This document shows, one piece after another, positions 51,820-58,267 of a stretch of 64,000 nucleotides of DNA. Numbering within the stretch: position 1 is the stretch's first letter; every line of letters starts with the position of its first letter. Source of the stretch: Rhodobacterales bacterium HTCC2255 (lineage in GTDB: Bacteria > Pseudomonadota > Alphaproteobacteria > Rhodobacterales > Rhodobacteraceae); assembly GCA_000153745.1 (NCBI GenBank), contig DS022282.1, forward strand, positions 1,842,816 to 1,906,815, read 5' to 3'. The notes beneath the pieces were generated by a model. It had not been told where the DNA came from, did not search any database, and saw only the letters and a program-made list of their open reading frames with translations. The translations under genes were made by a program, and so were the position numbers.

Positions 51820-53702
51820 ACTGTTTTGCCAGATTTTTTAATTTTATCAGAACGTATTTGATTAGGCATAGGGCCATATGAGTTTTCACCTAGGGACAAA
51901 GCTTTCTTCATTATGTCCCGCGCAATTGGAGCTGCTTTTCTTGAACCTGCACCGCCATGTTCTACTATTACTGATATTGAATAGCGTGGGTTTTTGTATG
52001 GTGCATATCCTACAAATAATGCATGATCTCTGCGGTTCCAGGGAAGATCCTCATTTTTGGTAACACCACCCTCACGCTCTTTTTTGCTAATGAACCTTAC
52101 TTGACTGGTTCCAGTTTTTCCTGCCATCTTATATTTTTCATCAATCCTAGAACTAAATGCTGTCCCTCTAGGATGGTTTGAAACATCATACATACCAGTT
52201 CGAATAAGATTTAGATGCTCAGTTTTAAAATTTAACTTTTGATTTTCATTTATGAAAGTAGATTTATTGTCAATCATGTTCAACATTCGTGGTTGAAGGA
52301 TTAATCCAGATGCTAATCTGGCGGTCATTGTTGCGAGTTGTAGGGGAGAAGCAAGCACAAAACCCTGACCAATTCCTGCATTAGCAGTATCACCAATAAA
52401 CCAATCTTGTTTTTTATTTTTCCGTTTCCACTGTTTTGTTGGCATGAGACCAGTCCGTACTGCAGGCAGTGGTAAATCATGTTTAATGCCCAAGCCAAGG
52501 GCTTTTGCAGTTTCTGTTATTTTTTCAATGCCGACTCTTATTGCAATATCATAAAAGAAAACATCACAAGAATATCGCAATGCTTCTCTTAATGATACCT
52601 TACCGTGTCCACCTTTTCGCCAACAATGAAATTTTCTACCGTTTATATCTTTGTGACCTGGACAAAAGATTTCTTCGTTCTTGTTTATTACTCCATCTGT
52701 TAATGCTGCAAGCGCAACAACCATTTTAAAAGTTGAGCCTGGTGGGTACAAACCCTGAACTGTTTTGTTTGCTAATGGACGATATTTATTATCGTTCAAT
52801 GCCTCCCAATCAGATACTGAAATACCATTTACAAATTTATTTGGATCAAATGTTGGTGCTGATGCAAGTGCCAATACATCGCCGTTGTTAACATCCATGA
52901 CAACAGCTGCAGAACTTTCTCCTTGCATGCGTTCAGTAGCAAATCTCTGCAAATCATGTCCAATAGTGAGTTGTAAATTAACCCCAGGCGAGCCTGATTG
53001 ATCTTTTAAAACTCGCATAACTCGGCCAACTGAATTCACTTCTATAGTCTTATAGCCAGCCTTACCTCGAAGTGGTTTCTCAACTTTTGCTTCTATCCCA
53101 TTTTTGCCAATTTGGAATCTTGGAATAAGGAGTAGTGGGTCTTTGTCATTAATTTGTGATAAATCATAATCACTAACTGGTCCAACATATCCAATGACAT
53201 GTGCAAAATCTGCTCCAATTGGATATTTTCTATTCAATCCCAATTTTGGAATAATTCCAGGTAATGATGGAGAATTTGCAGAAACAGCAGCAATATGCTC
53301 CCATTCAAGTCCTGTAGCAACGGTTACTGGTACAAAAGCTCTTCTACGAGATAGTTCCTTTAAGATTTCTGAAATTCTTATTTTTGAAAGTGGAATTAAT
53401 TCTGCGAGACGATTTAATACTGCTTCAGGATCAGTTGCTTGTTCACGAATAATTTCAATAGTATAGACTTGACGGTTTAGTGCTAATGTATTTCCTGAAC
53501 GGTCATATATTATGCCTCGTGAAGGTGGTTGTAAGCGAATATTAATTCTATTTTCTTCAGCGAGTAATCGGAATTTATCAGACTCTTTAACTCCAAGCTG
53601 GTTCATTCGCCAAGCAAGTGTGCCTGCTAATCCCAATTGCATTCCAGCCAATAATAAAGCCCGCCTTCTAAAGCGTCTTGGCGTTTTGAGAGGAAGATTC
53701 AT
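51816..53702 (-). CDS. mrdA: Penicillin-binding protein 2 (peptidoglycan D,D-transpeptidase MrdA)
   Basis: A 628-residue class B PBP. One N-terminal membrane helix after a basic stretch (PRRFRRRALLLAGMQ), pedestal domain, then transpeptidase motifs STFK (in YPPGSTFKMV), SCD (RYSCDVFFYD) and KTG (GKTGTSQV). Cross-links side-wall peptidoglycan with RodA and MreBCD. Overlaps mreD and rodA by 4 bases each. Confidence 0.96.
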   Translation of the reverse strand: MNLPLKTPRRFRRRALLLAGMQLGLAGTLAWRMNQLGVKESDKFRLLAEENRINIRLQPPSRGIIYDRSGNTLALNRQVYTIEIIREQATDPEAVLNRLAELIPLSKIRISEILKELSRRRAFVPVTVATGLEWEHIAAVSANSPSLPGIIPKLGLNRKYPIGADFAHVIGYVGPVSDYDLSQINDKDPLLLIPRFQIGKNGIEAKVEKPLRGKAGYKTIEVNSVGRVMRVLKDQSGSPGVNLQLTIGHDLQRFATERMQGESSAAVVMDVNNGDVLALASAPTFDPNKFVNGISVSDWEALNDNKYRPLANKTVQGLYPPGSTFKMVVALAALTDGVINKNEEIFCPGHKDINGRKFHCWRKGGHGKVSLREALRYSCDVFFYDIAIRVGIEKITETAKALGLGIKHDLPLPAVRTGLMPTKQWKRKNKKQDWFIGDTANAGIGQGFVLASPLQLATMTARLASGLILQPRMLNMIDNKSTFINENQKLNFKTEHLNLIRTGMYDVSNHPRGTAFSSRIDEKYKMAGKTGTSQVRFISKKEREGGVTKNEDLPWNRRDHALFVGYAPYKNPRYSISVIVEHGGAGSRKAAPIARDIMKKALSLGENSYGPMPNQIRSDKIKKSGKTV

Positions 53703-54238
53703 GTTCTATTCCTTATGGAATATGAGATACTTTTTTCTGTTTTTTTAACTTGAAATACAATTCTAACAAAAATTACAACAATTGGGTACATAAAGATATC
53801 CACTCCTATTTGTTGAAGTGTTTCTATCCAACCGTTTCTTTCAGATAACGAAAGTATCAGTAGTATTTCTTTTAATAGGCTAGCAAAAAATAATATAATA
53901 GAAATTACAAGCCATTCACTTAAGAATAACATTTCTACAAAAGCAGGGCGATTTCGTCTAACAAATTCAGTTATAATCAATACTAAAAAAGTGTTTAAAC
54001 CTAATGGTTTCGTTAATAAAAAATCACTCAAAATAAATGTTAAAAAAATGAGCCAAAACGGCACATAATCCGGACTACGTATAATTAATATTAATGTAAT
54101 TAATAGTGTTGTTTCAGGCAGCAGAATATTTGTAGGTAACAATGTGATTGGTGATAATAAAATAAAAAGGCCAAGTACGAAAATAAAAAAAAATAGAAAT
54201 TGATTTAATATAATTCTGTATCTGTAGTTTTTAATCAT
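53699..54238 (-). CDS. mreD: Rod-shape-determining protein MreD
   Basis: A 179-residue membrane protein with five or six hydrophobic segments, few conserved motifs but RSPDYVPFWLIFLTFILSDFLLTKPLG-type pattern (in parts RSPDYVPFW and DFLLTKPLG) as in MreD. Identified mainly by position between mreC and mrdA and by topology. Overlaps mreC by 8 bases and mrdA by 4. Confidence 0.9.
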   Translation of the reverse strand: MIKNYRYRIILNQFLFFFIFVLGLFILLSPITLLPTNILLPETTLLITLILIIRSPDYVPFWLIFLTFILSDFLLTKPLGLNTFLVLIITEFVRRNRPAFVEMLFLSEWLVISIILFFASLLKEILLILSLSERNGWIETLQQIGVDIFMYPIVVIFVRIVFQVKKTEKSISYSIRNRT

Positions 54239-55115
54239 CAGTATTTGCCTTGGTTAATTCAGGGCCTATTAAACGACTAGGTTGGTTGATTGGTGCATTA
54301 GGAGAGTGTCTGATTATTCTGAGATATTCAAGACCACTAAAATTAGCTGACAACTGAGCTTTGAGTTGATTTGAGTTATCAAGAGATACTTGGCCTATAA
54401 GTAAATTAGCTGGGAAAACTCCACCATCTCCAGATGTTAATATTCTATCACCAGGCTGTACTTGTTTATTGTTTTCTATGAATAACAAACTGGGCTGTAT
54501 TGTATTATTACCTGAAAGAATTGCACGTTGATTAGATGGTTTAATCAAGACTGGGACATTACTAGATGTATCTGTCAGAAATAATATTCGTGAAGTATTC
54601 TTTCCAACGCCAGCAATTCGTCCAACTAATCCCAACCCATCCATAGCTGCCCAACCCTCGATGATGCCATCCGATATGCCTAAATTTATTATAGCTGATT
54701 GTCTAAATAGGCTTCCACTATCTACCAATATCTTTCCTGAAATATAGTTAAGCTTTGGATTTAGCTTAACATTATTTAAATCTAATAAGCGGGCATTTTC
54801 TTGTTCAAGCTGCAAGGCAGCTTCACGCCATGATCTCATTTTTTGTAATTCATCACGTAATTCTTGGTTTTGATCATAAAGTCGTTTGTAACTTTGAAAA
54901 TTTTGCACCATTTGAGATGCTTTGGTTACTGGTGCCATTGCCCAATCTAAATTGGGAACAATCTTATCAATAACAGAAATTCTTATAAGTTCTGCACGTG
55001 GATTATCAATTCGCCATAATATAAAAAAACAAAATGATATCAGAATGATTGCCGCCATACCTACAAAGGCTAGCGGTTTAATGAACTTTCCATCTTCGTG
55101 CTTTTTATCTATCAA
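54231..55115 (-). CDS. mreC: Rod-shape-determining protein MreC
   Basis: A 294-residue bitopic protein: one membrane helix at about 17-35, a coiled coil at about 70-110 (LRDELQKMRSWREAALQLEQE), then beta domains with YISGKILVDSG, GLVGRIAGVGKNTSRILFLTD and GDRILTSGDGGVFPANLLIGQV. Periplasmic scaffold linking MreB to the PBP2-RodA synthase. 23 bases downstream of mreB. Confidence 0.95.
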   Translation of the reverse strand: MIDKKHEDGKFIKPLAFVGMAAIILISFCFFILWRIDNPRAELIRISVIDKIVPNLDWAMAPVTKASQMVQNFQSYKRLYDQNQELRDELQKMRSWREAALQLEQENARLLDLNNVKLNPKLNYISGKILVDSGSLFRQSAIINLGISDGIIEGWAAMDGLGLVGRIAGVGKNTSRILFLTDTSSNVPVLIKPSNQRAILSGNNTIQPSLLFIENNKQVQPGDRILTSGDGGVFPANLLIGQVSLDNSNQLKAQLSANFSGLEYLRIIRHSPNAPINQPSRLIGPELTKANTDD

Positions 55116-55138
55116 TTTTTATTCCAAGTTGAATTTAA

Positions 55139-56194
<1,056 letters not shown>

Positions 56195-56347
56195 TTATTT
56201 TAAATTAATCATTTAATAAATTATACTTATTCAAAGATTATATTGAAAGCGAAGACTTTCTATTCCCCTTGATGAAGTGTTCTTTAGGCCAATTAATGCT
56301 TACATAATGAATTAGTTCAAACGAAATAATAACATATATGCAAAAAA

Positions 56348-57880
56348 TTAATTTGGGGCAGTTTTTTCACGTCGAACTAAAAGTTTGTTAAGCGCATTAA
56401 CATATGCTTTTGCGCTTGCTACAACAGTATCAGTATCTGCAGATTGTCCAGTTACTATTTTGCCATTTTCTTCCATTCTTACAGAAACCGTTGCTTGAGC
56501 ATCTGTCCCCTCAGTAACTGCATGTACTTGATATAGCTGCAGATGTGCTTGATGTGGGAATAAAGCTTGAACAGCTTTAAATACAGCATCGACAGGGCCA
56601 TCACCAATTGCTTTATGGCTGTATTCGACCTTATCAATAATTAAAGCTAATGAAGCAGTTTGTGGTCCTTCAGTGCCACATGTAACTTGAAGTGACTTTA
56701 CTTGAATTGTGTCGTTTGCTGAATTTGTTTCCTCATCTGATACCAATGCTAACAAATCATCGTCATAAACTTCTTTTTTGCGATCAGCTAAAGCTTTGAA
56801 ACGTACAAATACATCTTTAAGTTGATTGTCACCCAAATCATATCCAAGATCTTTCAACTTTGATCTAAGTGCTGCTCGACCTGAGTGTTTTCCCATTACT
56901 AGATTTGTTTCTGACAAACCGATATCTTCTGGACGCATAATTTCAAAAGTATCTGCTGATTTTAACATGCCATCTTGATGAATACCGCTTTCATGGGCAA
57001 AAGCATTTTTGCCAACTATGGCTTTATTATATTGTACTTGAAAACCTGAAACAGTTGCTACGCGGCGGCTTATATTCATTAATTTTGTTGAATCAATCAT
57101 AGTTTTATATGGCATTATATCGTTACGCACTCTCAAAGCCATTACAACTTCTTCAAGAGCTGTATTGCCTGCTCGTTCACCTAATCCGTTTATGGTGCAT
57201 TCGATTTGTCTTGCTCCACCAGTAATAGCAGCAAGAGCATTTGCGGTGGCCATACCTAGGTCGTTATGGCAATGGGTAGCAAAAATAATCTGGTCAGCGC
57301 CTGGCACGCGTTCAATAAGCATGCGTATTATATCGGCACTCTCAGATGGTGCGGTATAACCAACAGTATCTGGAATATTTATTGTATTAGCCCCTGCTTT
57401 TATTGCAGTTTCAACTGTACGGCATAAATAGTCTTCTTCTGTGCGAGTTGCATCCATCGGTGACCATTGAACGTTTGGGCATAGATTTCGAGCATGACTA
57501 ACTGTGTCGTGAATGCGCTCAACCATTTCATCCATTGTAAGATTAGGTATTGCTCTATGTTGGGGGCTTGTTCCTATAAATGTATGAATACGAGGGTTCA
57601 CGCCGTTCTTTACAGCTTCCCAACATCTATCAATATCTTTATAAACAGCTCTTGATAAGCCGCAGACCTGTGCATTTTTGGTATTAGATGCAATTTCAGA
57701 CACAGCCTTAAAATCACCTTCAGATGCGATTGGAAAACCAGCTTCAATAATATCGACGCCCATATCATCAAGCATTCCTGCAATTTCTAACTTTTCGTTG
57801 TGGCTCATAGTTGCGCCAGGAGATTGCTCACCGTCACGAAGTGTTGTGTCAAATATTAATACGCGATCTTGTTTTGTCAT
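56348..57880 (-). CDS. leuA: 2-isopropylmalate synthase
   Basis: A 510-residue enzyme that condenses acetyl-CoA with 2-oxoisovalerate, first step of leucine synthesis. N-terminal HMGL barrel with FDTTLRDGEQSPGA (Arg and Asp catalytic, metal site), HCHNDLGMA metal His pair, NGLGERAGNTALEEV, and a C-terminal LeuA_dimer allosteric domain (about 390-500) for leucine feedback. GAGG lies before the ATG. Preceded by a leucine-rich leader ORF and hairpins (58132-57994). Confidence 0.97.
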   Translation of the reverse strand: MTKQDRVLIFDTTLRDGEQSPGATMSHNEKLEIAGMLDDMGVDIIEAGFPIASEGDFKAVSEIASNTKNAQVCGLSRAVYKDIDRCWEAVKNGVNPRIHTFIGTSPQHRAIPNLTMDEMVERIHDTVSHARNLCPNVQWSPMDATRTEEDYLCRTVETAIKAGANTINIPDTVGYTAPSESADIIRMLIERVPGADQIIFATHCHNDLGMATANALAAITGGARQIECTINGLGERAGNTALEEVVMALRVRNDIMPYKTMIDSTKLMNISRRVATVSGFQVQYNKAIVGKNAFAHESGIHQDGMLKSADTFEIMRPEDIGLSETNLVMGKHSGRAALRSKLKDLGYDLGDNQLKDVFVRFKALADRKKEVYDDDLLALVSDEETNSANDTIQVKSLQVTCGTEGPQTASLALIIDKVEYSHKAIGDGPVDAVFKAVQALFPHQAHLQLYQVHAVTEGTDAQATVSVRMEENGKIVTGQSADTDTVVASAKAYVNALNKLLVRREKTAPN

Positions 57881-57993
57881 TTCATACCTCGTCTCTAATG
57901 TTCTATACGCGATGCTTAAGTATACTATATTTTTTCATATAAAAGCGGCAGTATTAATAGAGCTATATTTTTTATTTTCTTTTAAGATTATTT

Positions 57994-58054
57994 GGCGCAT
58001 TGTCTATCCCCTGAGCTTTGCGCCCAAAAAGATGAACGCTCAGAGGAAGCTCAG
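57994..58054 (-). promoter_or_regulatory. Candidate leucine attenuator: mutually exclusive hairpins
   Basis: On the minus strand, in order: segment A CTGAGCTT (58054-58047, in the last leader codons), B GGCGCA (58024-58019), A' AAGCTCAG (58018-58011), B' TGCGCC (57999-57994). A pairs with A' (8 bp) and B with B' (6 bp, extendable by 3 past one bulge), and the pairings cross, so only one can form. This is the layout of a ribosome-mediated attenuator. No T run follows B', so intrinsic termination is not assured. Confidence 0.55.
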
Positions 58055-58132
58055 TAATAAGAGTGCAGATAATGCTAAAAGTGCATTATGCGTGATTGCT
58101 TCAGGAGCTTGTATTGTTTTTACATTTACCAT
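58040..58132 (-). CDS. Leucine-rich leader peptide upstream of leuA (LeuL-like)
   Basis: A 30-codon ORF starting ATG at 58132 and ending TGA at 58042-58040, 159 bases before leuA on the same strand. Its C-terminal part reads ALLALSALLLLSFL: 8 leucines in the last 13 residues, encoded by CTT, TTA, TTA, CTC, TTA, TTA, CTG and CTC. Leucine-rich leaders before leuA or leuABCD are known attenuation devices. Start is preceded only by a weak AGG. Crossing hairpins follow. The best explanation of this 387-base spacer. Confidence 0.75.
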   Translation of the reverse strand: MVNVKTIQAPEAITHNALLALSALLLLSFL

Positions 58133-58267
58133 GGCCTAACAATACTTGATTTAAACAAGATTGAAAGCCTTAATAAACAATTCTTATAATAAAATTTTAA
58201 TTAAGTGGTTTTCTCTTATTAAAAATCTATTTATCAATATTATAGTAATAAAAGATATAACGTTAAA

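Follow-up and report, generated by a model that had tools for sequence, protein, structure and literature searches.

A leucine-rich leader peptide and crossing RNA stems upstream of leuA in Rhodobacterales bacterium HTCC2255 suggest a translational attenuator built like the actinobacterial LEU element

The 64,000-nt stretch of DNA analysed here (the window) carries upstream of leuA a leucine-rich open reading frame (ORF) followed by segments capable of pairing with each other, which raises the question of whether this is a leucine leader belonging to leuA and, if so, how it would act on that gene. The following elements frame the question:

58139..58144, minus strand: candidate -10 element TATTGT, 6 nt before the leader AUG, read from the sequence
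58040..58132, minus strand: leader peptide ORF of 30 codons, MVNVKTIQAPEAITHNALLALSALLLLSFL before the stop, from the translated ORF and its relatives
58052..58063, minus strand: run of four Leu codons, CTC TTA TTA CTG, the putative sensor, Leu being kept in relatives
57886..57890, minus strand: leuA Shine-Dalgarno-like GAGGT, read from the sequence
56348..57880, minus strand: leuA, 2-isopropylmalate synthase, 510 aa, 43-45% identical to leuA-annotated matches in plasmid records

The Leu-rich ORF that the preliminary description had placed before leuA at 58132-58040 was reproduced, with 8 Leu among its last 13 codons. Of the 564 ORFs in the window that start with ATG and span 20-61 codons, with both strands and nested starts included, 2 carry at least 8 Leu in the last 13 codons, the leader ORF being one of them. 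Folding energy was ordinary for the 260-nt region (z -0.41) and reached z -1.84 for the 71-nt core, and the case for an element rests on conservation and covariation rather than on folding energy. The sole match of the whole window at an Rfam gathering score was a tRNA gene (38839-38768, minus strand).

A LeuA search gave a match in 55 of 61 related genomes, the best 30 of which were used as loci. The leader core was situated directly upstream of leuA in 29 of these 30 Rhodobacteraceae loci chosen by LeuA alone, and in the remaining one (L008) it preceded an inserted gene. In addition, searching named genomes with a DNA pattern of the core yielded at least 120 stretches; leuA was detected by tblastn downstream of 119 of the 120 listed matches, L050 being cut by the locus end. 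Since these 120 loci hold the core by construction, its presence is tested by the count of 29 out of 30. Titles were available for 80 of the listed pattern matches; by genus nearly all of these belong to Rhodobacteraceae or Rhodobacterales, a few were classified no further than Alphaproteobacteria or Proteobacteria, and one was Maritalea mobilis. The LeuA nearest to that of the window among these matches was from an uncultured Amylibacter (L064, 92%).

Leaders could be parsed at 147 of 150 loci (L068, which was short, L008 and L029 were dropped), and all 147 ended in Leu-Ser-x-Leu-stop, mostly with three further Leu before. Counted back from the stop, Leu was kept at codon -5 in 141, at codon -6 in 142 and at codon -7 in 119 of the 147 leaders with at least five synonymous codons in use (CTT, CTC, CTA, CTG and TTA), whereas codons -4 (CTT in 145), -3 (AGC in 146) and -1 (CTC in 146) were fixed as bases and codon -2 was free. 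The search pattern itself fixed parts of codons -4, -3 and -1, not of codons -5 to -7. Conservation of the amino acid at -5 to -7 and of the bases at -4, -3 and -1 is as expected of a sensor followed by a pairing strand. Comparison with relatives, which had been suggested as a check on the ORF and its Leu codons, found the core in nearly all Rhodobacteraceae loci chosen by LeuA, with Leu kept through synonymous change. The leader ORF is real and conserved in these sequences, a chance ORF is ruled out by its conservation among relatives, and the earlier assignment of a leucine leader peptide to leuA is well supported.

The RNA elements around the leader stop codon were assigned as follows:

58038..58046, minus strand: 5' arm of the stop-codon stem S1, CCTCTGAGC, conserved and containing the leader stop codon
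58008..58016, minus strand: 3' arm of S1, GCTCAGGGG, conserved
58019..58024, minus strand: 5' arm of the crossing stem S2, GGCGCA, inside the S1 loop (exact pairing, covariation)
57994..57999, minus strand: 3' arm of S2, TGCGCC, forming an H-type pseudoknot with S1 or an alternative hairpin
58048..58052, minus strand: candidate 5' arm of the base stem S3, GAGCT, over the last Leu-Ser codons, at the position of CTTAGC in relatives
57960..57964, minus strand: candidate 3' arm of S3, AGCTC, at the position of GCTAAG in relatives and weak in the window

Two mutually exclusive pairings had been described for this region. The first, CTGAGCTT (58054-58047) with AAGCTCAG (58018-58011), is exact in the window, but its register is not conserved: it requires CTG at codon -4, and 145 of 147 leaders read CTT at this codon, whose T the search pattern already fixed for 119 of these 145. 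The sequence CTGAGCTT is confined to the window genome (L001) and L003, and the pairing was therefore rejected as a conserved stem; the conserved partner of its 3' arm lies 8 nt further downstream and is CCTCTGAGC. The hairpin logic initially proposed was thus right in its second stem and incomplete in missing the stop-codon hairpin S1 and the base stem S3. In L001 and L003 only, the perfect 8-bp stem rivals S1 for its 3' arm, perhaps as a replacement for a base stem lost in this clade.

The same kind of leader was found beyond Rhodobacteraceae. R1, a covariance model built from the core in Rhodobacteraceae, matched 19 of 387 alphaproteobacterial genomes at E<=0.001, 13 of them outside Rhodobacteraceae; leuA was downstream in 19 of 19 loci, with a gene intervening in L153 and L158. 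When regions upstream of LeuA were chosen by protein only (109 of 115 LeuA places were taken), a strict rule placed the stop codon within a suitably shaped hairpin in 57 of the 109 regions, and 66 passed by motif score. Two of the strict hairpins (L206 and L246) were dropped in later counts, leaving 55 leaders outside Rhodobacteraceae with the consensus CTTCGACTTA..GCCCCTGA(A/G)CG and the partner CG(T/C)TCAGGGG. Codon -4 was Leu in all 55 of these leaders and codon -6 in 50; at codon -5, 34 leaders had Arg and 18 had Leu. Codon -1 was Pro in all 55, a preselected feature because this codon belonged to the strict-hairpin rule. S1 covaried in this set through changes of the stop codon between TGA, TAG (L181, L207, L221 and L227, among others) and TAA (L189, L220). 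Cells of S1 changed on both sides numbered 37 versus 6.2 in shuffles, but some circularity enters this covariation, as complementarity had been used to find the 3' arm. Among the matches of a wider covariance model (R2, below), in L337, L338, L341, L346 and L351, inspected by eye, TGG replaces TGA and the ORF ends 2-7 codons later with the hairpin kept, so that S1 seems to be selected independently of the stop codon.

A second covariance model (R2) detected a leader or a diverged form at most 600 nt upstream of leuA in 70 of 113 alphaproteobacterial genomes with a window-type LeuA, and none in the other 43. Of the 64 leaders used to train R2, 49 came from genomes included in this search and the window's own was a further one; the count therefore holds partly by construction, and the independent count is 57 of 109. 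Across 397 genomes of the phylum, R2 matched 101 at E<=0.01, 100 of them in Alphaproteobacteria. Of 87 R2 matches, 70 adjoin window-type LeuA, 5 more adjoin leuA and 5 are opposite-strand shadows, the others having E values of 0.0088 or worse. Twenty non-randomly chosen contexts were examined by eye, and in 18 the downstream gene was leuA as recognised by its motifs, 4 of these (L332, L333, L334 and L336) encoding another LeuA subfamily. The matches L340, next to an msrA-like ORF and the sole R2 match outside the class, and L349, next to a transporter-like ORF, appear to be chance matches.

LeuA of a different subfamily was observed behind the same kind of leader in L332, L333, L334, L336 and L357, from Sphingomonas-type genomes and another genome. 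The Sphingomonas LeuA is 57% identical to an actinobacterial LeuA, and the arrangement looks as though one enzyme had been exchanged for another and the leader retained or gained anew. On pSymB of Sinorhizobium meliloti (L360) a Leu-run uORF, MTQADAHKIAAIFSGHDANRAPARAFASLLLLGLIRGCRVR, ending in LLLLGLIRGCRVR before the stop, lies upstream of a leuA of the other subfamily; its R2 score corresponds to E=0.073. The leuA-like gene of Streptomyces clavuligerus (L201), which stands in another setting, was left out.

The second pairing of the preliminary description (58024-58019 with 57999-57994), S2 in our assignment, is exact in the window, conserved, and covaries in Rhodobacteraceae. In an alignment of 113 of 114 selected reference leaders (L068 omitted), in whose selection S2 played no part, 93.9% of S2 cells were paired. 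Two-sided changes occurred in 49 cells, all in S2, versus 17.6 in shuffles, and 0 of 500 shuffles reached as many; the next pair outward was formed in 102 of 141 leaders versus a shuffled mean of 54 and a maximum of 75. We also applied a swap test, which compares pairing with the own partner to pairing with the partners of other loci after removal of near-identical rows (147 reduced to 99 leaders in Rhodobacteraceae, 55 to 49 in other alphaproteobacteria). In the 99 Rhodobacteraceae none of 20000 permutations matched the own partner. In the 49 leaders outside this family 12635 of 20000 permutations were as good, which gives S2 no support there and rules it out as a class-wide pseudoknot. As in the LEU element found before actinobacterial leuA genes, S1 and S2 cross; both arms lie in the window and S2 covaries in Rhodobacteraceae. 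In the predicted fold of the window an apical pairing inside S1 uses the GGGCG strand and excludes S2, and the base stem is absent.

The base stem S3 is formed in relatives by CTTAGC, over the last Leu-Ser codons, pairing with GCTAAG shortly before the start codon. An exact GCTAAG arm was present in 87 of 147 Rhodobacteraceae leaders and missing from 60. The pair beyond this arm was formed in 37 of the 87, whereas shuffles averaged 25 and only 3 of 10000 did as well. Among 139 leaders with an assigned start, 82 had GCTAAG upstream of it, and in 81 of these the arm ended 5-30 nt before the start (median 19 nt). It continued as GCTAAGGA in only 27 of the 82, which implies that the arm more often lies just upstream of the Shine-Dalgarno sequence than on it. 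In the swap test the own partner was best, with 0 of 20000 permutations as good, both in the 99 Rhodobacteraceae and in the 49 other alphaproteobacteria, and a cruder test agreed (own 16.36, swapped 14.95, top of 30 swaps 15.53). A control pairing the loop with downstream sequence was not above swaps (13012 of 20000 in Rhodobacteraceae, 1926 of 20000 in the others). A further control tested the Leu codons for pairing with the first 30 nt downstream of S1, a stretch that shares sequence with the S3 region, and here too the own partner exceeded swaps in both sets (0 of 20000). Contact between the base helix and the Shine-Dalgarno sequence may therefore not be general; in L178 and L179 the helix adjoins S1 and not the Shine-Dalgarno sequence.

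Outside Rhodobacteraceae the Leu codons can pair with the Shine-Dalgarno sequence itself, as in L236, where TCCTTCGA pairs with TCGAAGGA 7 nt before the start, and in L193, where GTCCTTCG over the Leu codons pairs with CGAAGGAC. The best pairing of the Leu run comprised at least 6 bp in 30 of the 55 leaders outside Rhodobacteraceae, and 19 of these 30 pairings ended 3-25 nt before the start.

Loci in which leuA is not the first gene bear on the position of this arm. Inspection of 11 loci with a large gap between leader and leuA or without an adjacent leader revealed an intervening gene of 118-123 codons in 7 Rhodobacteraceae loci (L041, L083, L088, L144, L153, L158 and L008), labelled cupin-like from its sequence rather than by a family search. 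GCTAAG precedes the start of this gene in 5 of the 7 (L041, L088, L144, L153 and L008) and is looser in L083 and L158. This placement suggests control of translation initiation of whichever gene comes first. Downstream of leuA in the window, mreB-, mreC- and mreD-like genes, named from their sequence, follow on the same strand (region 53699-57880), and through read-through the leader could also touch these cell-shape genes.

The candidate -10 element of the window would leave little or no untranslated RNA ahead of the leader AUG, giving an essentially leaderless transcript. A -10-like hexamer at -14 to -12 of the leader AUG was present in 80 of the 85 Rhodobacteraceae leaders with a single in-frame ATG, versus 4 of 340 control windows. 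Outside Rhodobacteraceae no such fixed-distance element was found in 26 single-ATG leaders (control 6 of 100), which confines the leaderless reading to Rhodobacteraceae.

The element probably attenuates translation of leuA in response to leucine, with an architecture like that of the LEU element of Actinobacteria. Comparison among the leaders shows that the ORF is conserved, that Leu is preserved in the peptide and that terminators are rare, and it supports S1, S3 within the family and, for Rhodobacteraceae, S2. The leader ORF would be translated, in Rhodobacteraceae from a transcript starting at or just before its AUG, and the Leu codons would be both sensor and effector, the last Leu codon and the one after it forming S3 with a strand at or slightly upstream of the leuA Shine-Dalgarno sequence. 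S3 would enclose the S1 hairpin that holds the leader stop, and in Rhodobacteraceae the S2 pseudoknot would lock S1. With ample Leu-tRNA the ribosome would finish and leave, allowing S3, S1 and S2 to form, and leuA would be initiated poorly. With scarce Leu-tRNA it would stall on the Leu run, cover the 5' arms of S3 and S1, and free the leuA start. Stalling, the direction of the effect, and translational rather than Rho-dependent output are what we infer from this arrangement.

The preliminary description had noted the missing T run after the second hairpin and guessed at translational or Rho-dependent control. There is indeed no U run, and the guess fits the leader family. In Rho-dependent transcriptional attenuation, ribosome release at the leader stop would expose the RNA between leader and leuA to Rho, stalling would protect it, and the structures would modulate Rho access or pausing. 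The lack of an intrinsic terminator in the window and their small number in relatives agree with this scheme, and in its passages on terminator-less cys leaders PMC1262725 proposes Rho. However, it would not predict an S3 arm near the start of the first gene, the cupin-like gene included, and the stretch from S1 to the LeuA match is as short as 44 nt (L048, L065, L085 and L139). We therefore consider Rho-dependent control unlikely.

Translational attenuation was further explored in a pseudoknot-free folding model in which a ribosome footprint was masked on the Leu run, with a control mask at the leader 5' end and near-identical rows removed. Predicted openness of the Shine-Dalgarno zone in 94 Rhodobacteraceae increased from 0.53 in the free RNA to 0.62 with the Leu run masked (control 0.50; p=7e-8), and in 49 other alphaproteobacteria from 0.37 to 0.46 (control 0.37; p=0.003). 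It moved the wrong way in 20 of the 94 and in 10 of the 49.

The window itself showed no modelled gain (free 0.40, stalled 0.40, control mask 0.45), and L003, L004 and L006 were flat too. Its S3 comprises only 5 bp, with a pairing probability of 0.01, about 70 nt from the leuA Shine-Dalgarno sequence. The distance from leader stop to leuA start is 159 nt in the window and 157-165 nt in its group, versus 84 nt in the short-spacer sisters L005 and L007. The roughly 75 extra nt together with the weak S3 imply that coupling to leuA may have changed in this small clade. Alternatively, the leader could still be translated there and no longer control leuA, as a decaying relic after a ~75-nt insertion. 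An S3 probability of 0.00-0.03 and the absence of a modelled effect in L001, L003, L004 and L006, as well as the spacer length, point in this direction, but L002 of the same long-spacer group still responds in the model (0.31 to 0.54, S3 probability 0.37). Moreover, between L001 and L002 the core is better conserved (0.86) than the 5' part of the ORF (0.62), the spacer (0.70) and the promoter (0.40), and we regard a relic as quite unlikely. In the sisters, S3 probabilities were 0.77 (L005) and 0.75 (L007), with openness rising from 0.41 to 0.53 in L005 and falling from 0.61 to 0.52 in L007. The element is thus kept in the clade of the window, but its reach to leuA there is uncertain.

A protein could instead bind the folded leader, the Leu codons being incidental. 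The authors of PMC1262725, where they discuss the actinobacterial leaders, argue for a regulatory protein and cite Streptomyces mutants, and the fixation of codons -4, -3 and -1 at the nucleotide level is in line with this. Codons -5 to -7, which vary synonymously and remain Leu, and the S1 loop, which is highly variable outside Rhodobacteraceae and leaves no constant unpaired core to be seen there, make protein binding very improbable. A riboswitch was rejected as the alignment of leaders outside Rhodobacteraceae showed no constant unpaired core.

S1 or S2 could also act as an intrinsic terminator and attenuate transcription. One example favours this, L270 (genome G174), where S1 is directly followed by eight T. 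The 8 nt after S1 contain at least 5 T in just 1 of the 147 leaders from Rhodobacteraceae and in 5 of the 55 from outside, and those after S2 in 3 of 141; no intrinsic terminator was found on the leuA strand in the window region. These counts rule out intrinsic termination as a general mechanism and leave it scarcely probable here. The T run of L270 indicates that the element can evolve into a terminator, and a switch from translational to transcriptional attenuation is possible at that locus.

As to previous annotation, Rfam 15 gave no match for the leader region of the window, none at gathering score in 16 loci and none by E-value in 10 loci; weak matches to RUF1, SNORA29, SNORD105 and IS1222_FSE were below gathering scores, made no biological sense and were discarded. 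As no Rfam family matches, leuA control is probably unannotated across Alphaproteobacteria. The open-access literature matches listed described no leuA leader in Alphaproteobacteria; an earlier description in Vitreschak et al. 2004 is possible, a work that, as PMC1273637 refers to it, described an alphaproteobacterial ilvB leader.

Among known systems, uORFC-8-2 upstream of cysS in Rhodobacterales, as outlined in PMC8632094, likewise comes from this bacterial order and sets an amino-acid uORF ahead of the matching gene, but has Cys codons, a tRNA synthetase gene and a terminator with a U run. Streptomyces lividans LeuL1, MRFGLLLLSCRGEGL, belongs to another phylum; in the description given by PMC8079986 its transcript is leaderless, as that of the present leader may be, and it likewise lacks a typical Rho-independent terminator. 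The leuL leader of E. coli and Salmonella is likewise a Leu-rich leader before leuA, but its terminator with a U run is absent from the window, as is any match to its Rfam family, Leu_leader (RF00512). In translational attenuation of the erm type a stalled leader ribosome uncovers a masked ribosome-binding site, as proposed here, but the stall results from antibiotic and nascent peptide and not from a missing aminoacyl-tRNA. Architecturally, the leader groups with the LEU element rather than with the leuL attenuator of E. coli. In the account of Seliverstov et al. (2005, PMC1262725) the LEU element before actinobacterial leuA has a Leu-run leader, a pseudoknot, a base stem between Leu codons and the Shine-Dalgarno sequence, and no terminator; the alphaproteobacterial leader is alike in gene, Leu-run peptide, pseudoknot and lack of a terminator, and may also share the base stem, which in the family often lies beside the Shine-Dalgarno sequence and is weak in the window, and the alternative internal hairpin. 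The same source mentions leader mutations of Streptomyces coelicolor leuA that had some effect, unlike classical attenuation. The two differ in that the S1 sequences are unrelated (GCCGCGACGAG in L354 versus CCTCTGAGC or CCCCTGAGC in Alphaproteobacteria), that the ORF of the actinobacterial examples continues through the S1 5' arm whereas most alphaproteobacterial leaders stop inside S1, and that the counterpart of the pseudoknot, S2, is supported only in Rhodobacteraceae.

Four actinobacterial leuA leaders end in LLLLSCRDESSD (L354), LLLSCRGGGL (L352), LLLGRRDGV (L353) and LLLGCRGGV (L358) before the stop, and on visual inspection each of the four seems to form a stem resembling S1 downstream of the Leu run, crossed by a pairing further downstream. 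R2 finds L354 (E=8e-4) and L352 (E=0.007), not L353 and L358; identical strings shared with alphaproteobacterial leaders are 16 nt long for L352 and L354 and at most 10 nt (L353) or 9 nt (L358). Common descent of the alphaproteobacterial and actinobacterial leaders is plausible, though unproven, since Leu codons complementary to a Shine-Dalgarno sequence may arise twice. Tentatively, and as a possibility short of probable, we propose a single design in two phyla (LLLLSC/LLLLSR), in which pyrimidine-rich Leu codons resembling an anti-Shine-Dalgarno sequence mask the leuA start, which would be ancestral or widespread in Alphaproteobacteria, also before Sphingomonas-type LeuA, and would be the same as the actinobacterial LEU element. 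If true, codon sensor and translational switch would be the same nucleotides, and Leu codons doubling as the masking strand would explain why a terminator is dispensable. By the same token, the LEU element would work via ribosome position and not via a dedicated protein. The comparison would carry an actinobacterial RNA element that has received little study into an entire proteobacterial class, provides about two hundred naturally covarying sequences, and opens tractable hosts to the 20-year-old question of whether the LEU element responds to ribosome position or to a regulatory protein.
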